Part shown: in pieces, positions 5,952 to 38,005 of the stretch
Numbering within the stretch: the stretch's first letter is position 1
How the letters are laid out: the number at the start of each line of letters is the position of its first letter
NCBI GenBank assembly: GCA_001515945.1
Contig: LOER01000034.1
Location: 62,001 to 126,000 of the forward strand
Direction of reading: 5' to 3'
From: Desulfitibacter sp. BRH_c19
GTDB taxonomy: Bacteria; Bacillota; DSM-16504; Desulfitibacterales; Desulfitibacteraceae
DNA length: 64,000 nt
Position numbers and translations under genes: made by a program
The notes under the pieces: model-generated
The model's database searches: none
Told to the model about the DNA's origin: nothing
What the model saw: the letters and a program-made list of their open reading frames with translations, nothing else

Positions 5952-7509
5952 TTATTTCCATTAAGACTATAGGAAGATAATCAATAATATCCATGGCTGT
6001 CAGAGAATACTCACCTGTTTGTTTAACAGCCTTATCTGCAGCATAACCATGAAGAAATACACCCATAGCTGCAGCTGTATCCATATTAAAACCTTGACCT
6101 AAAAGGGCCCCTATTATACCCGCCAGGACATCACCTGTCCCTCCTGTACTCATTCCTGGGTTTCCGGTAATATTTAAAAAAGTCTTACCCTTTGGAGAAG
6201 CAATAAGTGTTTTAGATCCTTTTAATACAAGGATTACACCCCACTCTTTCGCAAATTTTTCTCCAATGGTTAATCTGTCTTTTTGAATTTCCTGGATATT
6301 GATTTGACATAGACGTGCCATTTCTCCTGGATGTGGTGTAAATATAATCTCTGCTTGTATTTTTTTTAGAAACTCTTTATCACTTGCTACAATTCTACTC
6401 AAAAGGTTTAAACCATCAGCATCAAGAACGATGGGAATTTTTATTTGAGGCATTAATTCTTTTAATAAGGTTTCTCCTTCAATTGAAACACTCATTCCAG
6501 GGCCTATAACTATAGTATCTACAGATTTAATCATCTCCAAGATTGGTTCTAAGGAATCTCTCCCAAGAAAGCCCTTATCATTTTCAGGCAATGGTTTTGT
6601 CATAACCTCGGTAAGTTTTTGTTCAAGTATGGAATTTAATGAGCGAGGAATCGCTGCTGTTACAAGACCAGCTCCTGCTTTTAATGCCCCAGTAGCTGCT
6701 AAGTATACAGCACCCGTCATTCCAGGAGAACCACCTACTACAAGTACGTGACCGTAGTTGCCTTTATGTGTGTTTGACTCCCTTTTAGTTAGCTTACTTT
6801 TTACCCAATCTAAAGTTATTAGTTCCCTATTTAAGGAATTCTGATTAAATAACTTTTGTGGTAGTGAGATATCTACAACTTCTATCTGTCCGCTAAATCT
6901 ACATCCTGGCTCTAAATAGAGACCAATTTTTGGCAATCCAAAAGTAATTGTATGGGTAGCTTTAATACATTCTCCGCAAACTTCTCCTGTGTCAGCTTCT
7001 AAACCTGAGGGTAAATCTACACTTAATACTATTTTTTTTGATTCATTTATGAGTTTTATGAGACTTGTAGATATTCCTTTAGCTTCTCCCTTAAATCCCG
7101 TACCATAAATAGCATCTACAATTAAGTCCGAATAAATCATTGCGATATTAACTCTGTGTAGATCCTTCTCATTAATAATTGGATATATTCTCACTCCCAT
7201 GGATTGGAGGATTTTTAGGTTTGTAGCTGCATCACCTTTTATCTCTGATGGACTACTAAGCAAAAAAACCTTCACATCAGCACCTTTGTTTATTAGATGC
7301 CGAGCAATGACCATTCCGTCTCCTCCATTGTTTCCCTTACCACAAAAAATCATAATCCTTTTATTTTCTAAAAAGTAGTTAAATAGTTGCTTTATCTTGT
7401 GCACCACTTGTAAACCTGCATTCTCCATTAAAACAATACCAGGTATAGAATACTTATTAATAGCAATATTGTCTAAATTCATCATTTCATTAGAAGTAAC
7501 AAGTTTCAA
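5938..7509 (-). CDS. nnr: Bifunctional NAD(P)HX epimerase/dehydratase
   Basis: 523 residues and two domains. The N-terminal YjeF-type epimerase carries GKGNNGGDGMVIARHL near residue 55 and VDLPSGLEADTG. The C-terminal ribokinase-like ADP-dependent dehydratase carries GHVLVVGGSPGMTGA, FTPHPGEMARL and the late NPGMSTGGTGDVLAG motif. Together they repair hydrated NADH and NADPH. A TTG start at 7509 follows AGGGGG at good spacing. The gene is coupled to alr by overlap and lies 11 bases after acpS. Confidence 0.93.
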   Translation of the reverse strand: MKLVTSNEMMNLDNIAINKYSIPGIVLMENAGLQVVHKIKQLFNYFLENKRIMIFCGKGNNGGDGMVIARHLINKGADVKVFLLSSPSEIKGDAATNLKILQSMGVRIYPIINEKDLHRVNIAMIYSDLIVDAIYGTGFKGEAKGISTSLIKLINESKKIVLSVDLPSGLEADTGEVCGECIKATHTITFGLPKIGLYLEPGCRFSGQIEVVDISLPQKLFNQNSLNRELITLDWVKSKLTKRESNTHKGNYGHVLVVGGSPGMTGAVYLAATGALKAGAGLVTAAIPRSLNSILEQKLTEVMTKPLPENDKGFLGRDSLEPILEMIKSVDTIVIGPGMSVSIEGETLLKELMPQIKIPIVLDADGLNLLSRIVASDKEFLKKIQAEIIFTPHPGEMARLCQINIQEIQKDRLTIGEKFAKEWGVILVLKGSKTLIASPKGKTFLNITGNPGMSTGGTGDVLAGIIGALLGQGFNMDTAAAMGVFLHGYAADKAVKQTGEYSLTAMDIIDYLPIVLMEISEGE

Positions 7510-15324: not shown

Positions 15325-16809
15325 TTATAAAATTGGTCCATTAGGTATTTCTTTAATATCATGTTCCTTCATAAAACCTCTAACAATATTGTCTAATTCC
15401 TTTTCCTGTTCAGTATTCATTCCAACAGGAACATGGTTTTCTAAAATATCTTTTACCTTTTCCTGAGCTAATGTAAAGCTTCCCTTAGATCCTTCAGCTT
15501 CCCAGGAACTGTTGCTATTCCTAACAATTACCTTTGAAGGTAAATAAGGCTCTTTTTTATACCATCTTAGAGTATGGTCGGCCAGCAAATAATCTCCACC
15601 AGGTCCTAACTCAGAGATCAAATCAACTGCTAGTGTTTCATCATCTACTCTGATACCTTCATTTAATCTTAGAGCCATACCACATATTTCGTTGTCAATA
15701 ACTAGCTTTTCTAGACTAAAACAACCCACAAAATCCAAAATGCCAGCTCCAGAAATAACATTAATTCCAGCTAACTGGGCAATTATACCGCTCATTGCAG
15801 TTTCTAGGCCTGCCTGTACATCTACGAGTTTTGAATCACTAAGACCTGCATAGGTATGGGTTGGCAGGCCATAATACTTACCCATTTGGACATATGCTGC
15901 GCCAATCATAGTAGCCTCTAAAGCACTCATTGGAGTAGTTCCGTGTCTCATGTCAAAACTTACAGGTGCACTACCATAAATACACGGGGCCCCTTCCTTG
16001 GTACATTGTGCTAGTGTTAGACCGCTCAGAGTTTCTGTCACCTGTACAAGTACTGATCCTGCCAGAGTTGCTGGAGAGGCAGCACCTGGCATAGCCATGG
16101 TAATAAACTCTTGGGGTAAACCATAGCGGGCACAATCAATAATGTTTTGGGAGCTAATATGAGTCCACTTAAGTGGTGGAGAAGCACAAATATCAAAAAC
16201 AGCTAGTGGTTTCTCTTCTAGCTCTTTGTATCCACCCCTAACAACTGCAAGCATATCTCTCATATTTGATACACCATTTATGGTAAAAGCTCCTGTTATA
16301 ATTGCTTTTGGTGAGTTCTTTAATAAAAGGTAGAGTCTAAAGCTATCTCCAATAATTTTCGGAACATCATATGGGGTGACAGCCGAACTCTGTAACACTA
16401 GATTATCTAATGCATCAGTAACCTTTGATATCTTAATTAAGTCATGGCTCTGTGAACTCCTAGTTGTAATACCATCTGATGCCATCATTCTAATAGCACA
16501 TGAACCAGGATCAAAGTAAACATTACTTCCACTTAGATTTGCACTTAATTCCCCTTGTCTATTAAATAATTTAATTTCTTCTGGAGCTGTTTTAATTGCC
16601 TTTTCTACGAGCCGTCCTGGAATTTTAGCAATCCTTTTATTATAGTCTATAGTTGCTCCATGCTCCTCTAATATTTTTAATGCTTCCTCTGAGTCAAACT
16701 TTACTCCAGTTTTTTCTAGCAGGGCAATTGCCTGATCATGAATTTTCTCAATTTGTGAATCTGATAAAAGCTTTAACCTAGGTTGTCCTTCAAATGTAAA
16801 TTTTGCCAC
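15325..16809 (-). CDS. MttB-family (non-pyrrolysine) corrinoid methyltransferase
   Basis: 494 residues from GTG at 16809, chosen because AAAGGAGG lies 7 bases upstream. The longer reading from 16848 would start inside a palindromic repeat. The sequence matches the trimethylamine methyltransferase superfamily, with LPTHTYAGLSDSKLVDVQAG in the active-site region and a C-terminal ISELGPGGDYL segment. The frame has no in-frame TAG, so this is a non-Pyl member like MtgB, which demethylates quaternary amines such as glycine betaine to a corrinoid protein. The substrate is unknown. A corrinoid protein is encoded at 35.7 kb. A sigma-54-type promoter lies at 17037-17053. Confidence 0.87.
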   Translation of the reverse strand: MAKFTFEGQPRLKLLSDSQIEKIHDQAIALLEKTGVKFDSEEALKILEEHGATIDYNKRIAKIPGRLVEKAIKTAPEEIKLFNRQGELSANLSGSNVYFDPGSCAIRMMASDGITTRSSQSHDLIKISKVTDALDNLVLQSSAVTPYDVPKIIGDSFRLYLLLKNSPKAIITGAFTINGVSNMRDMLAVVRGGYKELEEKPLAVFDICASPPLKWTHISSQNIIDCARYGLPQEFITMAMPGAASPATLAGSVLVQVTETLSGLTLAQCTKEGAPCIYGSAPVSFDMRHGTTPMSALEATMIGAAYVQMGKYYGLPTHTYAGLSDSKLVDVQAGLETAMSGIIAQLAGINVISGAGILDFVGCFSLEKLVIDNEICGMALRLNEGIRVDDETLAVDLISELGPGGDYLLADHTLRWYKKEPYLPSKVIVRNSNSSWEAEGSKGSFTLAQEKVKDILENHVPVGMNTEQEKELDNIVRGFMKEHDIKEIPNGPIL

Positions 16810-30025: not shown

Positions 30026-30778
30026 CTAAAAAACCTCCCTTTTTCTCCTCTTAAGTTCTTGTACAATATATGAAGCAACATTTTCTGCATAGGTGCCTGG
30101 ACCAAAGCCTGCATCATATCCTAATTCCTGAGCAAGTTGATGGTCTATCCTAGGTCCACCTACAGCTAAAATTACTTTGTCCCTGATGCCTTCAGCTTCC
30201 AGTATTTCGATTAATCTAGTTAAGTTAGTAATGTGAATTTCCTTTTGTGTTACAACCTGAGACACTAATATAGCATCGGCTTTAATCTCAATTGCCTTGG
30301 CAACCAGCTCTTCGCATGTAACCTGCGAACCCAAATTATACGCGTCTATCCCCTTATAGCTTTCTAGCCCTTTATGATGGTTAATTCCTTTCATATTCAT
30401 AATGGCATCTATACCAACTGTATGAGCATCACTTTCAATACATGCACCTACTATATTCAGATGTCTACCAAAGTTATCTTTAATAAATGCCTCTACTTCT
30501 GCCTTTTCCATTACTTTAACTTTTATTTTTTCTACTCTAACTTTCGTAACATCAATACTCTCTATTGCTCTTCCGTAGATTATAAAGTAGGAAAAACCTT
30601 TTCCTATGTCTTTTGAGAATACTACCTTTGGCTCATCAAGACCCATTTTGCCCGCCAACTGCTTTGCTGCCTCTATAGCTTCATCACTATAATCAATTGG
30701 TAATGTAAATGATAGTTGAACAGCCCCATCGTCTAAGGTATCACCATATGGTTTAACGCTTTTCAAATCCACATCCAT
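30026..30778 (-). CDS. kamE: Lysine 5,6-aminomutase beta subunit
   Basis: 250 residues. The cobalamin-binding motif DAHTVGIDAIMNMKG (base-off DxHxxG) is near residue 118. The PLP lysine of this enzyme is on the beta subunit in the following loop, and KGINHHKGLESYKG contains lysine candidates. With KamD it converts beta-lysine to 3,5-diaminohexanoate using adenosylcobalamin. It abuts kamD and kdd without gaps. Confidence 0.95.
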   Translation of the reverse strand: MDVDLKSVKPYGDTLDDGAVQLSFTLPIDYSDEAIEAAKQLAGKMGLDEPKVVFSKDIGKGFSYFIIYGRAIESIDVTKVRVEKIKVKVMEKAEVEAFIKDNFGRHLNIVGACIESDAHTVGIDAIMNMKGINHHKGLESYKGIDAYNLGSQVTCEELVAKAIEIKADAILVSQVVTQKEIHITNLTRLIEILEAEGIRDKVILAVGGPRIDHQLAQELGYDAGFGPGTYAENVASYIVQELKRRKREVF

Positions 30779-35315: not shown

Positions 35316-35580
35316 GTTTTTACTCCATCTGAAGGTTAGAAACCGTTATCCAGGGACATAGCACCGCTTATCTCCCCCTTATAGAAGATGGGAGTCTTAG
35401 CGGTGATAGTCATCGGATAAAACAAAACTTAGCTTACGCCAGTAGTTCTAGCATTGTGTCTTTCGCAATGCGTAGAAATACCAGTGCAAAGCCGCCAGTA
35501 GTTCTAGCATTGTGTCTTTCGCAATGCGTAGAAATACCAGTGCTATAGTGCGCCAAGTCCTTAGACGCAAGCTGAAGCCT
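35316..35580. repeat. Hairpin-chain intergenic element, copy D
   Basis: The core (35316-35420) reads TTTTTACTCCATCTGAAGGTT, then three nested stems. TTATCC (35346-35351) pairs with GGATAA (35415-35420), CACCGCT (35362-35368) with AGCGGTG (35399-35405), and CTCCC (35372-35376) with GGGAG (35390-35394). The TAGAAGATGGGAGTCTTA arm lies inside. After the core come two tandem 56-bp hairpin units. It lies in the 629-base gap 35053-35681, which holds no gene. The 3' part shares GATAGTCATCGGATAA with copies B and C. Confidence 0.7.
35437..35543. repeat. Tandem pair of a 56-bp hairpin module
   Basis: Unit 1 (35437-35492) and unit 2 (35493-35543, shortened) are identical over 51 bases. Each starts CGCCAGTAG, has a hairpin TTCTAGCATTG / CAATGC(G)TAGAA, and ends TACCAGTGC. 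Unit 1 continues AAAGC. A single similar unit is at 17235 and an analogous unit with a different stem at 61619. Confidence 0.85.
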
Positions 35581-35681: not shown

Positions 35682-36323
35682 TTAACCTAATAGTGCTAAA
35701 GCTTTTGTAACCGCTTCCGCTGCATCTTCAGCATATGCATTGGCACCTATTCTATCTGCCCAGCGTTGCGTGCACGGTGCTCCACCGACCATTGTTTTAA
35801 ATCTATCTTTAAGTCCTTCTTTTTTAAGAACTCCCTCTAATTTCTTCTGTTCTGGCATTGTTGTAGTAAGAAGGGCACTTGTACCAATAATATTAACATC
35901 ATGCTCTACTGCTTTTTCAATAATTGTGCTGACAGGTATTTCGCGACCTAAGTCAATAACTTCAATACCCTGTGCTTTAACTAGGGAAACCACTATGCCT
36001 TTACCAATATCATGTACATCCCCTTCAACAGTAGCAATGAGCATTTTACCCTTATTTTTTCTTGCCTTTGCTTCAATAGCTTCCTCTAAGACAACAGAGG
36101 CTTCCTTCATAACCTGAGAAGCAGAAATCAACTCCGGTAGGAATAATTCACCTCTACCAAAAAGATCACCTACTTGCCTAATGCCATCACTAAAACCCTC
36201 ACTTAGTACTTCTACGGGATCCAATCCTTCAGCTAATGCTTGTCTTGCAACCTCAACTGCTTTCTTGGGATCGCATTTCAAGATAGCCTCTCTTGCCTGA
36301 TTAAGAATTAATTCTTTACTCAC
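35682..36323 (-). CDS. mtbC: Dimethylamine corrinoid protein (MtbC-like)
   Basis: 213 residues. A helical cap is followed by a Rossmann cobalamin-binding domain with GDVHDIGKGIV near residue 103 (axial His in DxHxxG) and the GTSALLTTTMPEQ and VGGAPCTQRWADRIGANAYAEDA motifs typical of methylamine corrinoid proteins. It carries the methyl group from MtbB to a downstream methyltransferase. GTG start behind GGGGGAG. It lies directly downstream of mtbB, separated by a REP-like repeat, and ends at its own terminator. Confidence 0.88.
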   Translation of the reverse strand: MSKELILNQAREAILKCDPKKAVEVARQALAEGLDPVEVLSEGFSDGIRQVGDLFGRGELFLPELISASQVMKEASVVLEEAIEAKARKNKGKMLIATVEGDVHDIGKGIVVSLVKAQGIEVIDLGREIPVSTIIEKAVEHDVNIIGTSALLTTTMPEQKKLEGVLKKEGLKDRFKTMVGGAPCTQRWADRIGANAYAEDAAEAVTKALALLG

Positions 36324-36430: not shown

Positions 36431-37825
36431 TTACCTTGATAGTCCAGACTTTGCCATAAAGCGCTCTACTGAATTAATTTTAATATCCAAAGCTTTTGCA
36501 ATACGCATTTTTGCTTCCATTCCTCTAGCAATACCAGTTACAGGAATAGTGCGACCAATATCAAGGTCTTCTCTTATCTCCTGCATAGTATAACAGTCGC
36601 TAAGTTCAATAGGATCAACACCTAGTTTTTCTGCAACGTACTTTTTAGCCTCATTTATTTTCATGCTCTTGGATAGTTGCATCCGTAATACCAGATCTCC
36701 GGCAGTACGAATTCCGCCCATACCAACAGCAACTTCATGAGTAGCCTCTAAGCCGAAGGGATCGCCTACGCCTATCTACAACCCATCAGCCTTACCAATC
36801 TCCACAATAGCTTTATCTGCCCTGGAAACCGCATCTACCGGAGGAACCTCAGTCATGGGGATCGCTCCAACACCCATACCAACGTTCACATGTACAGGAA
36901 TATTTGCAACTTCTGTGCAGGCCTTTACAAATGTAACCGTACGTGCAATATTCCATGGGAAACTCATATTACTGTTTGTATTAACCACAAGACCAAAAAT
37001 ATTTGCTCCTGCTTTTTCTGCTAATTTAACTTGTTTATGAGGGTAGAGCCCAGCCAAACGCACACCATCATACTCTAGTTGGCCATGCATACCCAAGTTA
37101 AACTCTCCAGCCATTCCCATTTCTATACCCAAATCAGGATACTTTTGTTTTATTATTTCAATTGCTTTTAATGCGGCTAAAACATCTGCATCACCTGAAG
37201 CACCACATGTATCAAAGTTCATTCCATCAGCACCGGCTTCATACATTCCACCGGCTATATATACCATGTCTCTTACTGCATGTTCCACCGCTTCTTCCTG
37301 TGCTGCCCTTGCCTCAGAAATTTTGCCTTCTGGTAATAGCTCTGCCCAGTTATCAACAGGTCCGTCTGGTTTAGTATATAATCCCAGATTTGGCATTGAC
37401 CCATATAAAACAGGCATTACGCTATTTAATTGAGCAAGCTCCATGACTGCAGCTTCATTATGCATGACTGATTTAACTGCCTTATAACTATAGTCAATAT
37501 GTCCAATGTCAAGAGAATCGGCTCCCAAAACCTTTTCATGTATTAAAACAGCAGTTGATCGATCAATAGCAATATTTGCATGGTAGGAAATTTTGCAGCC
37601 ACCTGAGTCTGATGTTGTAACAACTTCACTACCCCTTTCCACACCTACAACATTACCGGGCATGGTAATAATTTCAAATAAATGATCTAATTCCTCTTGA
37701 GTCAATTCAGGTATTTTACCACGATCAGCAGCATCTTTTGTACCTTCTTCAAGGTCACAGCGGATGTCATCTGCAGTTAAATAAATCCCTGAACCATCAC
37801 CCATTCGGGTAAAGTATTTACCCAT
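36431..37825 (-). CDS. mtbB: Pyrrolysine-containing dimethylamine methyltransferase MtbB
   Basis: Reading through one TAG gives 464 residues, the normal MtbB length (about 465). N-terminal: MGKYFTRMGDGSGIYLTADD, GHIDYSYKAVKSVMHNEAA, and GADGMNFDTCGASGDAD near residue 210. Residues 341-349 are VEIGKADGL, then TAG, then IGVGDPFGLEATHEV. Archaeal MtbB has VDGI-Pyl-IGVGDPLG at the same place. The C-terminal third continues in the same frame without defects. It transfers methyl from dimethylamine to MtbC. ATG behind AAGGAGGG. Reading the TAG as stop would leave a truncated, inactive protein. Confidence 0.93.
36776..36778 (-). other. In-frame TAG, predicted pyrrolysine codon (residue 350 of MtbB)
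   Basis: The minus strand reads GGG TTG TAG ATA GGC. It lies at the position where Methanosarcina MtbB carries pyrrolysine, with conserved flanks on both sides. No pylT, pylS or pylBCD gene is in the window, so decoding must come from elsewhere in the genome. Confidence 0.9.
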
Positions 37826-38005
37826 ATGCTTCTCCCTCCTTAAGTTGAAATTGTATTAAATACTTGTACACCAAAAAGACTAAATAGAAACTCCTATACA
37901 ATCTCTTTAATGATATCTAAAATTGCAGAGAATAACAAGAGTTTTCCTATACTCCCACTTATATGGTACTATTTTCTAACTAACTTTTACATATGCAAAG
38001 TATAA

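Follow-up and report, generated by a model that had tools for sequence, protein, structure and literature searches.

The mtbB gene considered here lies on the reverse strand of the window, by which we mean the whole analysed stretch of 64,000 nucleotides (contig C34:62001-126000 of genome G000). The locus comprises the following features:

36431..37825, (-) strand: mtbB, dimethylamine:corrinoid methyltransferase, 464 codons plus a TAA stop (TIGR02368, PF09505)
36776..36778, (-) strand: in-frame TAG, predicted pyrrolysine codon, residue 350, context TTG TAG ATA (from same-codon homologues)
37834..37841, (-) strand: ribosome-binding site AAGGAGGG preceding the mtbB start codon, ATG (read from the sequence)
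35682..36323, (-) strand: cognate corrinoid protein (MtbC-like), GTG start (TIGR02370, 220.3 bits)
36681..36712, (-) strand: RNA hairpin AUUCGUA.C.UGCCGG[AGAU]CUGGUA.U.UACGGAU, 13 bp, inside the coding sequence (from folding, pair counts and covariation)
36679..36778, (-) strand: hit of Rfam RF02509 PYLIS_2 (pyrrolysine insertion sequence of mtbB), running from the TAG onward (57.6 bits; gathering threshold 36)

The 36431-37825 frame is a single mtbB gene of the dimethylamine methyltransferase family. Its translation runs from the initial M to a final SR with exactly one internal stop, flanked by VEIGKADGL before and IGVGDPFGL after, and the residues sum to 464 (349 + 1 + 114), so that the unbroken minus frame, flanks, coordinates and length given in the sequence-only reading of this DNA were all right. 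That reading had also proposed one gene rather than two broken halves, and the halves indeed match adjacent positions of the TIGR02368 profile (4-355 and 357-464). The read-through protein scores 548.5 bits against this profile over its full length (cut-off 369.1) and 665.8 bits against PF09505 (cut-off 25); a sequence comparison of MtbB with the PDB gave no convincing match. Dimethylamine is the probable substrate. The predicted MtbC-like corrinoid gene does follow mtbB, at 220.3 bits against a TIGR02370 cut-off of 215.3, the same protein falling below the cut-off of the MtbC equivalog NF041607 (203.9 vs 350). Further downstream on the same strand are kamB and kamC (by profile search) and kamD, kamE and kdd (judged from their sequences), which fits the proposal that the organism is a lysine fermenter. 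Between mtbC and kamB, at 35437-35543, sits a 56-bp tandem unit in 1.9 copies that has no Rfam match and is one of a dispersed family of repeats, to which the genome has 57 matches, frequently arranged in arrays. As in Methanosarcina MtbB and the families TIGR02368 (dimeth_PyL) and PF09505, the match is whole-length, the TAG is at the pyrrolysine position and a corrinoid gene adjoins; unlike in Methanosarcina, the host is bacterial, the gene is present in five diverged copies and UAG is a common stop.

All five PF09505 genes of this genome carry one TAG each, and in the four other copies (53-77% identical to the window copy) it falls in the same column; for this reason the TAG-containing gene is not the product of chance, sequencing error or decay. 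We also fetched 80 related mtbB loci from other genomes and searched them for the motif around the TAG site. In 79 of these 80 loci TAG occupies that codon; the remaining one (L116) was missed by the motif search and is hence unscored, and two extra hits to the motif that carry other codons arose by chance at different places within their loci. Compared with its three nearest relatives, the protein downstream of the TAG is 73-81% identical, silent sites are near saturation, dN/dS is 0.06-0.14 where computable, and the 18 codons from the TAG to the next ATG are 83% identical. A protein conserved after the TAG, including the 18 codons that precede the ATG, indicates selection on one continuous protein.

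The machinery for pyrrolysine is present at a single locus on another contig (L015, contig C22). ARAGORN identifies a tRNA-Pyl with anticodon CUA at 6069-6141 of this locus, and PylB (TIGR03910, 498.6 bits), PylC (TIGR03909, 444.9 bits), PylD (TIGR03911, 262.5 bits), PylSn (TIGR03912, 131.5 bits) and PylSc (TIGR02367, 352.3 bits) all score over their cut-offs. The prediction that this bacterium decodes UAG as pyrrolysine had been staked on the presence of pyl genes; with pylT, pylB, pylC, pylD, pylSn and pylSc all found, the complete set supports it, the insertion itself being inferred from sequence. The genes form two convergent sets, pylT-B-C-Sn on one strand and pylSc-D on the other. This layout beside a bacterial microcompartment (BMC) cluster recurs in a congener (L230), and the other relatives examined have different pyl gene orders, with L225 and L186 cut off by contig ends. 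The adjoining cluster (L015 1-5973) encodes three BMC shell proteins, an EutQ-like protein, an aldehyde dehydrogenase, a PTAC phosphate propanoyltransferase and an RnfC-like protein, and directly abuts the pyl genes here and in the congener; a link to choline- or ethanolamine-derived substrates is possible.

A search of 50 genomes, almost all selected for carrying mtbB, gave PylSc scores over the cut-off in 46; two of the genomes (G002 and G008) are seemingly the same assembly, making the set slightly redundant. One genome (G011) has a PylSc fragment at a contig end, and the profile search did not detect PylSc in the draft genomes G015 and G040 despite a TAG-bearing gene. G003, with neither MtbB nor PylSc, was considered as a pyrrolysine-free control and rejected because, close to a contig end, it carries pylB, pylSn, tRNA-Pyl and an mttB with a TAG.

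Pyrrolysine-decoding Firmicutes and Deltaproteobacteria have been published (PMC7593587, PMC9768040, PMC8318568). Bacterial pyrrolysine is thus already known, in Desulfitobacterium, Bilophila and Ca. Formimonas, and mtbB adds one more case. The present genome resembles Ca. Formimonas warabiya DCMF, Desulfitobacterium hafniense and Bilophila wadsworthia in having pylT, pylB, pylC and pylD together with split pylSn/pylSc, and in keeping pyrrolysine and non-pyrrolysine MttB side by side (PMC9768040, PMC7593587); it differs from these systems in the convergent arrangement beside the microcompartment cluster. In Bilophila, mtbB is absent (PMC7593587).

The genome contains 40 PF06253 (MttB) matches; in 7 of them one TAG occurs, at the position of pyrrolysine in MttB (context, for example, VAGG before and ADSK after). 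In the window itself, 15382-16794 (-) is a non-pyrrolysine MttB-family gene whose codon there is CTT (Leu). L007 mtbB and L031 mttB, each with an internal TAG, seem to end in TAG as well, with TGA or TAA further downstream; the TAA counted in L041 precedes that gene's likely start. No TAG occurs in the MtmB-family genes (PF05369; L001 and L002), and in an alignment with Methanosarcina MtmB one of the proteins places Thr opposite the pyrrolysine; a non-pyrrolysine MtmB-family protein of Ca. Formimonas is strongly induced on dichloromethane (PMC9768040). With about 40 MttB-family matches, this is a large corrinoid methyltransferase set of the same kind as that of Ca. Formimonas, for which 82 have been reported (PMC9768040).

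How is UAG used in the rest of the genome? We took open reading frames of at least 150 amino acids mechanically from a 610-kb genome sample. Of 432 long frames, 107 end at TAG, and removal of the 7 that are internal TAGs of mtbB/mttB leaves 100 of 425 (23.5%); the TAG share is 28% in a congener and 23% in an order-mate, all three of these genomes having pyl genes, so that the comparison runs without a pyl-free control. TAG-terminated frames with long extensions, judged by eye, yielded no new pyrrolysine genes in the 610-kb sample: the long open stretches after a TAG belong to mtbB/mttB, to an in-frame neighbouring gene (kamE-TAG-ATG-kdd, pheS-pheT) or to no evident gene. It had been suggested that other genes ending in TAG need re-examination. 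Within this sample the suggestion holds for mtbB/mttB only, and TAG is otherwise a stop. In the window, the kamE TAG (30026-30028) is followed directly by the kdd ATG in the same frame, where read-through would give a KamE-Kdd fusion of two lysine-fermentation proteins; we rejected this candidate, as the junction is unconserved, congeners ending kamE with TGA and having kdd in another frame and distant relatives mostly using TAA. There is no genome-wide reassignment of UAG, which still serves as an ordinary stop; this is in line with the published view that UAG is rare in pyrrolysine-using archaea and that bacteria rely on regulation (PMC3941956). With UAG as the terminator of about 24% of sampled genes, full or unregulated insertion would have side effects.

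Taken together, mtbB is almost certainly one gene in which tRNA-Pyl(CUA), provided by the complete pyl set, reads the UAG at codon 350 to give a 464-residue pyrrolysine enzyme. Under the standard code the stop would truncate the frame, and the TAG would be a nonsense mutation or assembly error that left an mtbB pseudogene in two pieces. We give this almost no credence and reject it, since the codon is conserved as TAG across the five copies here and the 79 loci elsewhere; protein-level selection also continues beyond it, the frame has no other defect and the full pyl gene set is present. It is very unlikely, too, that the UAG terminates and that the C-terminal part restarts at the ATG at 36721 to form a two-subunit enzyme. 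A 96-amino-acid frame with that ATG start does exist downstream of the TAG, and some termination must occur at a codon that is a normal stop here. Against this, the 18 codons between TAG and ATG are conserved as protein in the three nearest relatives, and every scored copy has TAG, never TAA or TGA, as a mere stop would not require; on the invariant TAG and the conserved 18 codons we reject the split-gene reading. That some other suppressor tRNA (lysine or glutamine) reads the codon is left a little room by a tRNA scan that covered parts of the genome, and is nonetheless improbable in the extreme given a tRNA-Pyl with CUA alongside every pyl gene, and given that the UAG of the affected families is read as pyrrolysine in Methanosarcina (PMC8211752).

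The PYLIS_2 match raises the matter of RNA structure after the UAG. An Rfam model such as this can follow coding similarity, and for that reason we compared the folding of 70 non-redundant bacterial mtbB genes with that of synonymous versions. In 60-nt windows the mean z against synonymous shuffles is -1.26 at +45 and -1.63 at +60, with all other windows from -300 to +255 between +0.21 and -0.64; permutation of codons within each 60-nt window, which keeps codon composition, reproduces this peak as the only one (z -1.73 at +45). No other folding peak occurs in the scanned mtbB stretch (-300 to about +315), and this one corresponds to the hairpin 66-97 nt downstream of the UAG. Across the 70 sequences, 86% of hairpin cells pair, against 30-42% when the partners are slid by 1-3 columns, and double-change cells number 74 against 32.6 +/- 6.8 when shuffled. 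Three hairpin pairs in which double changes are frequent link one third-codon position to another, and they take ranks 1, 2 and 3 in covariation out of 1387 column pairs of this type; a fourth pair of the type (+77/+86) is nearly invariant. Codon choice at other hairpin positions is strict (GGA for 61/70 Gly, GAT for 59/70 Asp, CTG for 55/62 Leu). RNAalifold recovers the inner 5 pairs only, the longer stem resting on the pair counts. These results show that the hairpin is under selection. It overlaps the 3' hairpin of PYLIS_2, with its loop at the place of the model's 3' loop, and it differs from the Rfam model in a bacterial stem that extends to 13 bp with covariation. The model's 5' stem, right after the UAG, is weakly paired in these genes (57% of cells vs 30-39% in slid controls), and its region (0 to +30) has no folding excess over synonymous shuffles.

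For comparison, MttB-family genes were aligned at the pyrrolysine column (43 non-redundant pyrrolysine-type and 28 non-pyrrolysine genes). Folding peaks at +210 in pyrrolysine-type mttB (z -1.37), and no peak occurs in the non-pyrrolysine genes (z 0.02); in shuffles that preserve third bases, z at +207 is -1.64 +/- 0.21 for all pyrrolysine-type mttB vs 0.01 +/- 0.16 for the others. The signal spans about +207 to +270 after the UAG (for example in L043, L033 and L034), further downstream than Rfam PYLIS_3, is lacking from 28-29 non-pyrrolysine paralogues, and is common to the larger pyrrolysine-type mttB subgroups, which differ in pairing register; a single consensus structure for it was not found. 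In an unbiased covariation scan of mttB only an apical wobble pair (+233/+242) stands out (rank 7 of 8322), and one of five mttB genes of this genome tested singly gave no folding signal. We consider the folding element of pyrrolysine-type mttB tentative. The Rfam model PYLIS_3 (RF02510) matches all 7 pyrrolysine-type mttB genes found in the genome and also, at 40 bits, the non-pyrrolysine gene at 15382-16794; because of the latter match it partly follows coding similarity and is no evidence by itself. An earlier study, which covered the first 100 nt only, reported a canonical structure in mtbB but did not find one in mttB (PMC3639795).

In the mechanism that we propose for this Bacillota-type bacterium, PylB, PylC and PylD would make pyrrolysine and the split synthetase PylSn/PylSc would charge tRNA-Pyl(CUA), which would then read the UAG at mtbB codon 350 to yield the 464-residue enzyme. 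Pyrrolysine in the active site would bind dimethylamine, whose methyl group would then be transferred to the product of the adjacent corrinoid gene. Since UAG elsewhere is still a stop, every UAG is most likely contested between Pyl-tRNA and release factor 1, and part of the product should be the 349-residue form. Expression of the pyl genes would set the overall level of insertion, and the hairpins may raise it at genes that need pyrrolysine. It speaks against a direct effect that the hairpin of mtbB is located far downstream of the point where mRNA enters a ribosome paused at the UAG; any action would have to go by way of a bound factor or of mRNA handling.

What might the hairpin be selected for? 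It may favour pyrrolysine insertion over termination, and we tentatively propose that family-specific RNA elements in the coding sequence (mtbB +66 to +97; mttB about +207 to +270) help tell pyrrolysine UAGs from stop UAGs, a proposal to which we give perhaps one chance in three. The hairpin could quite plausibly be unrelated to pyrrolysine, at not far short of an even chance, having been selected for mRNA stability, for regulation or for pausing that aids protein folding. A ribosome stopped at the UAG covers mRNA short of 66-97 nt downstream, so the hairpin lies beyond the covered part. The work of Longstaff et al. 2007 in E. coli, as cited in PMC3639795 and PMC8211752, also found such elements to be non-essential. 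Set against a function unrelated to pyrrolysine are the hairpin's standing as the sole folding peak in the part of mtbB that was scanned and the confinement of the MttB-family peak to pyrrolysine-type genes, which argues against a general need of the protein.

The hairpin evidence goes beyond what the sequence-only reading had claimed and is the part worth following up. Standard annotation would split mtbB in two and miss five dimethylamine and seven trimethylamine-type methyltransferases. Bacteria like this one use UAG both as a frequent stop and for pyrrolysine, and a review holds that pyrrolysine insertion involves no mRNA context (PMC8211752). RNA elements that mark pyrrolysine UAGs would, if true, contradict that view, and the selected mtbB hairpin, together with an mttB signal that tracks pyrrolysine, is a concrete and testable candidate for such mRNA context.
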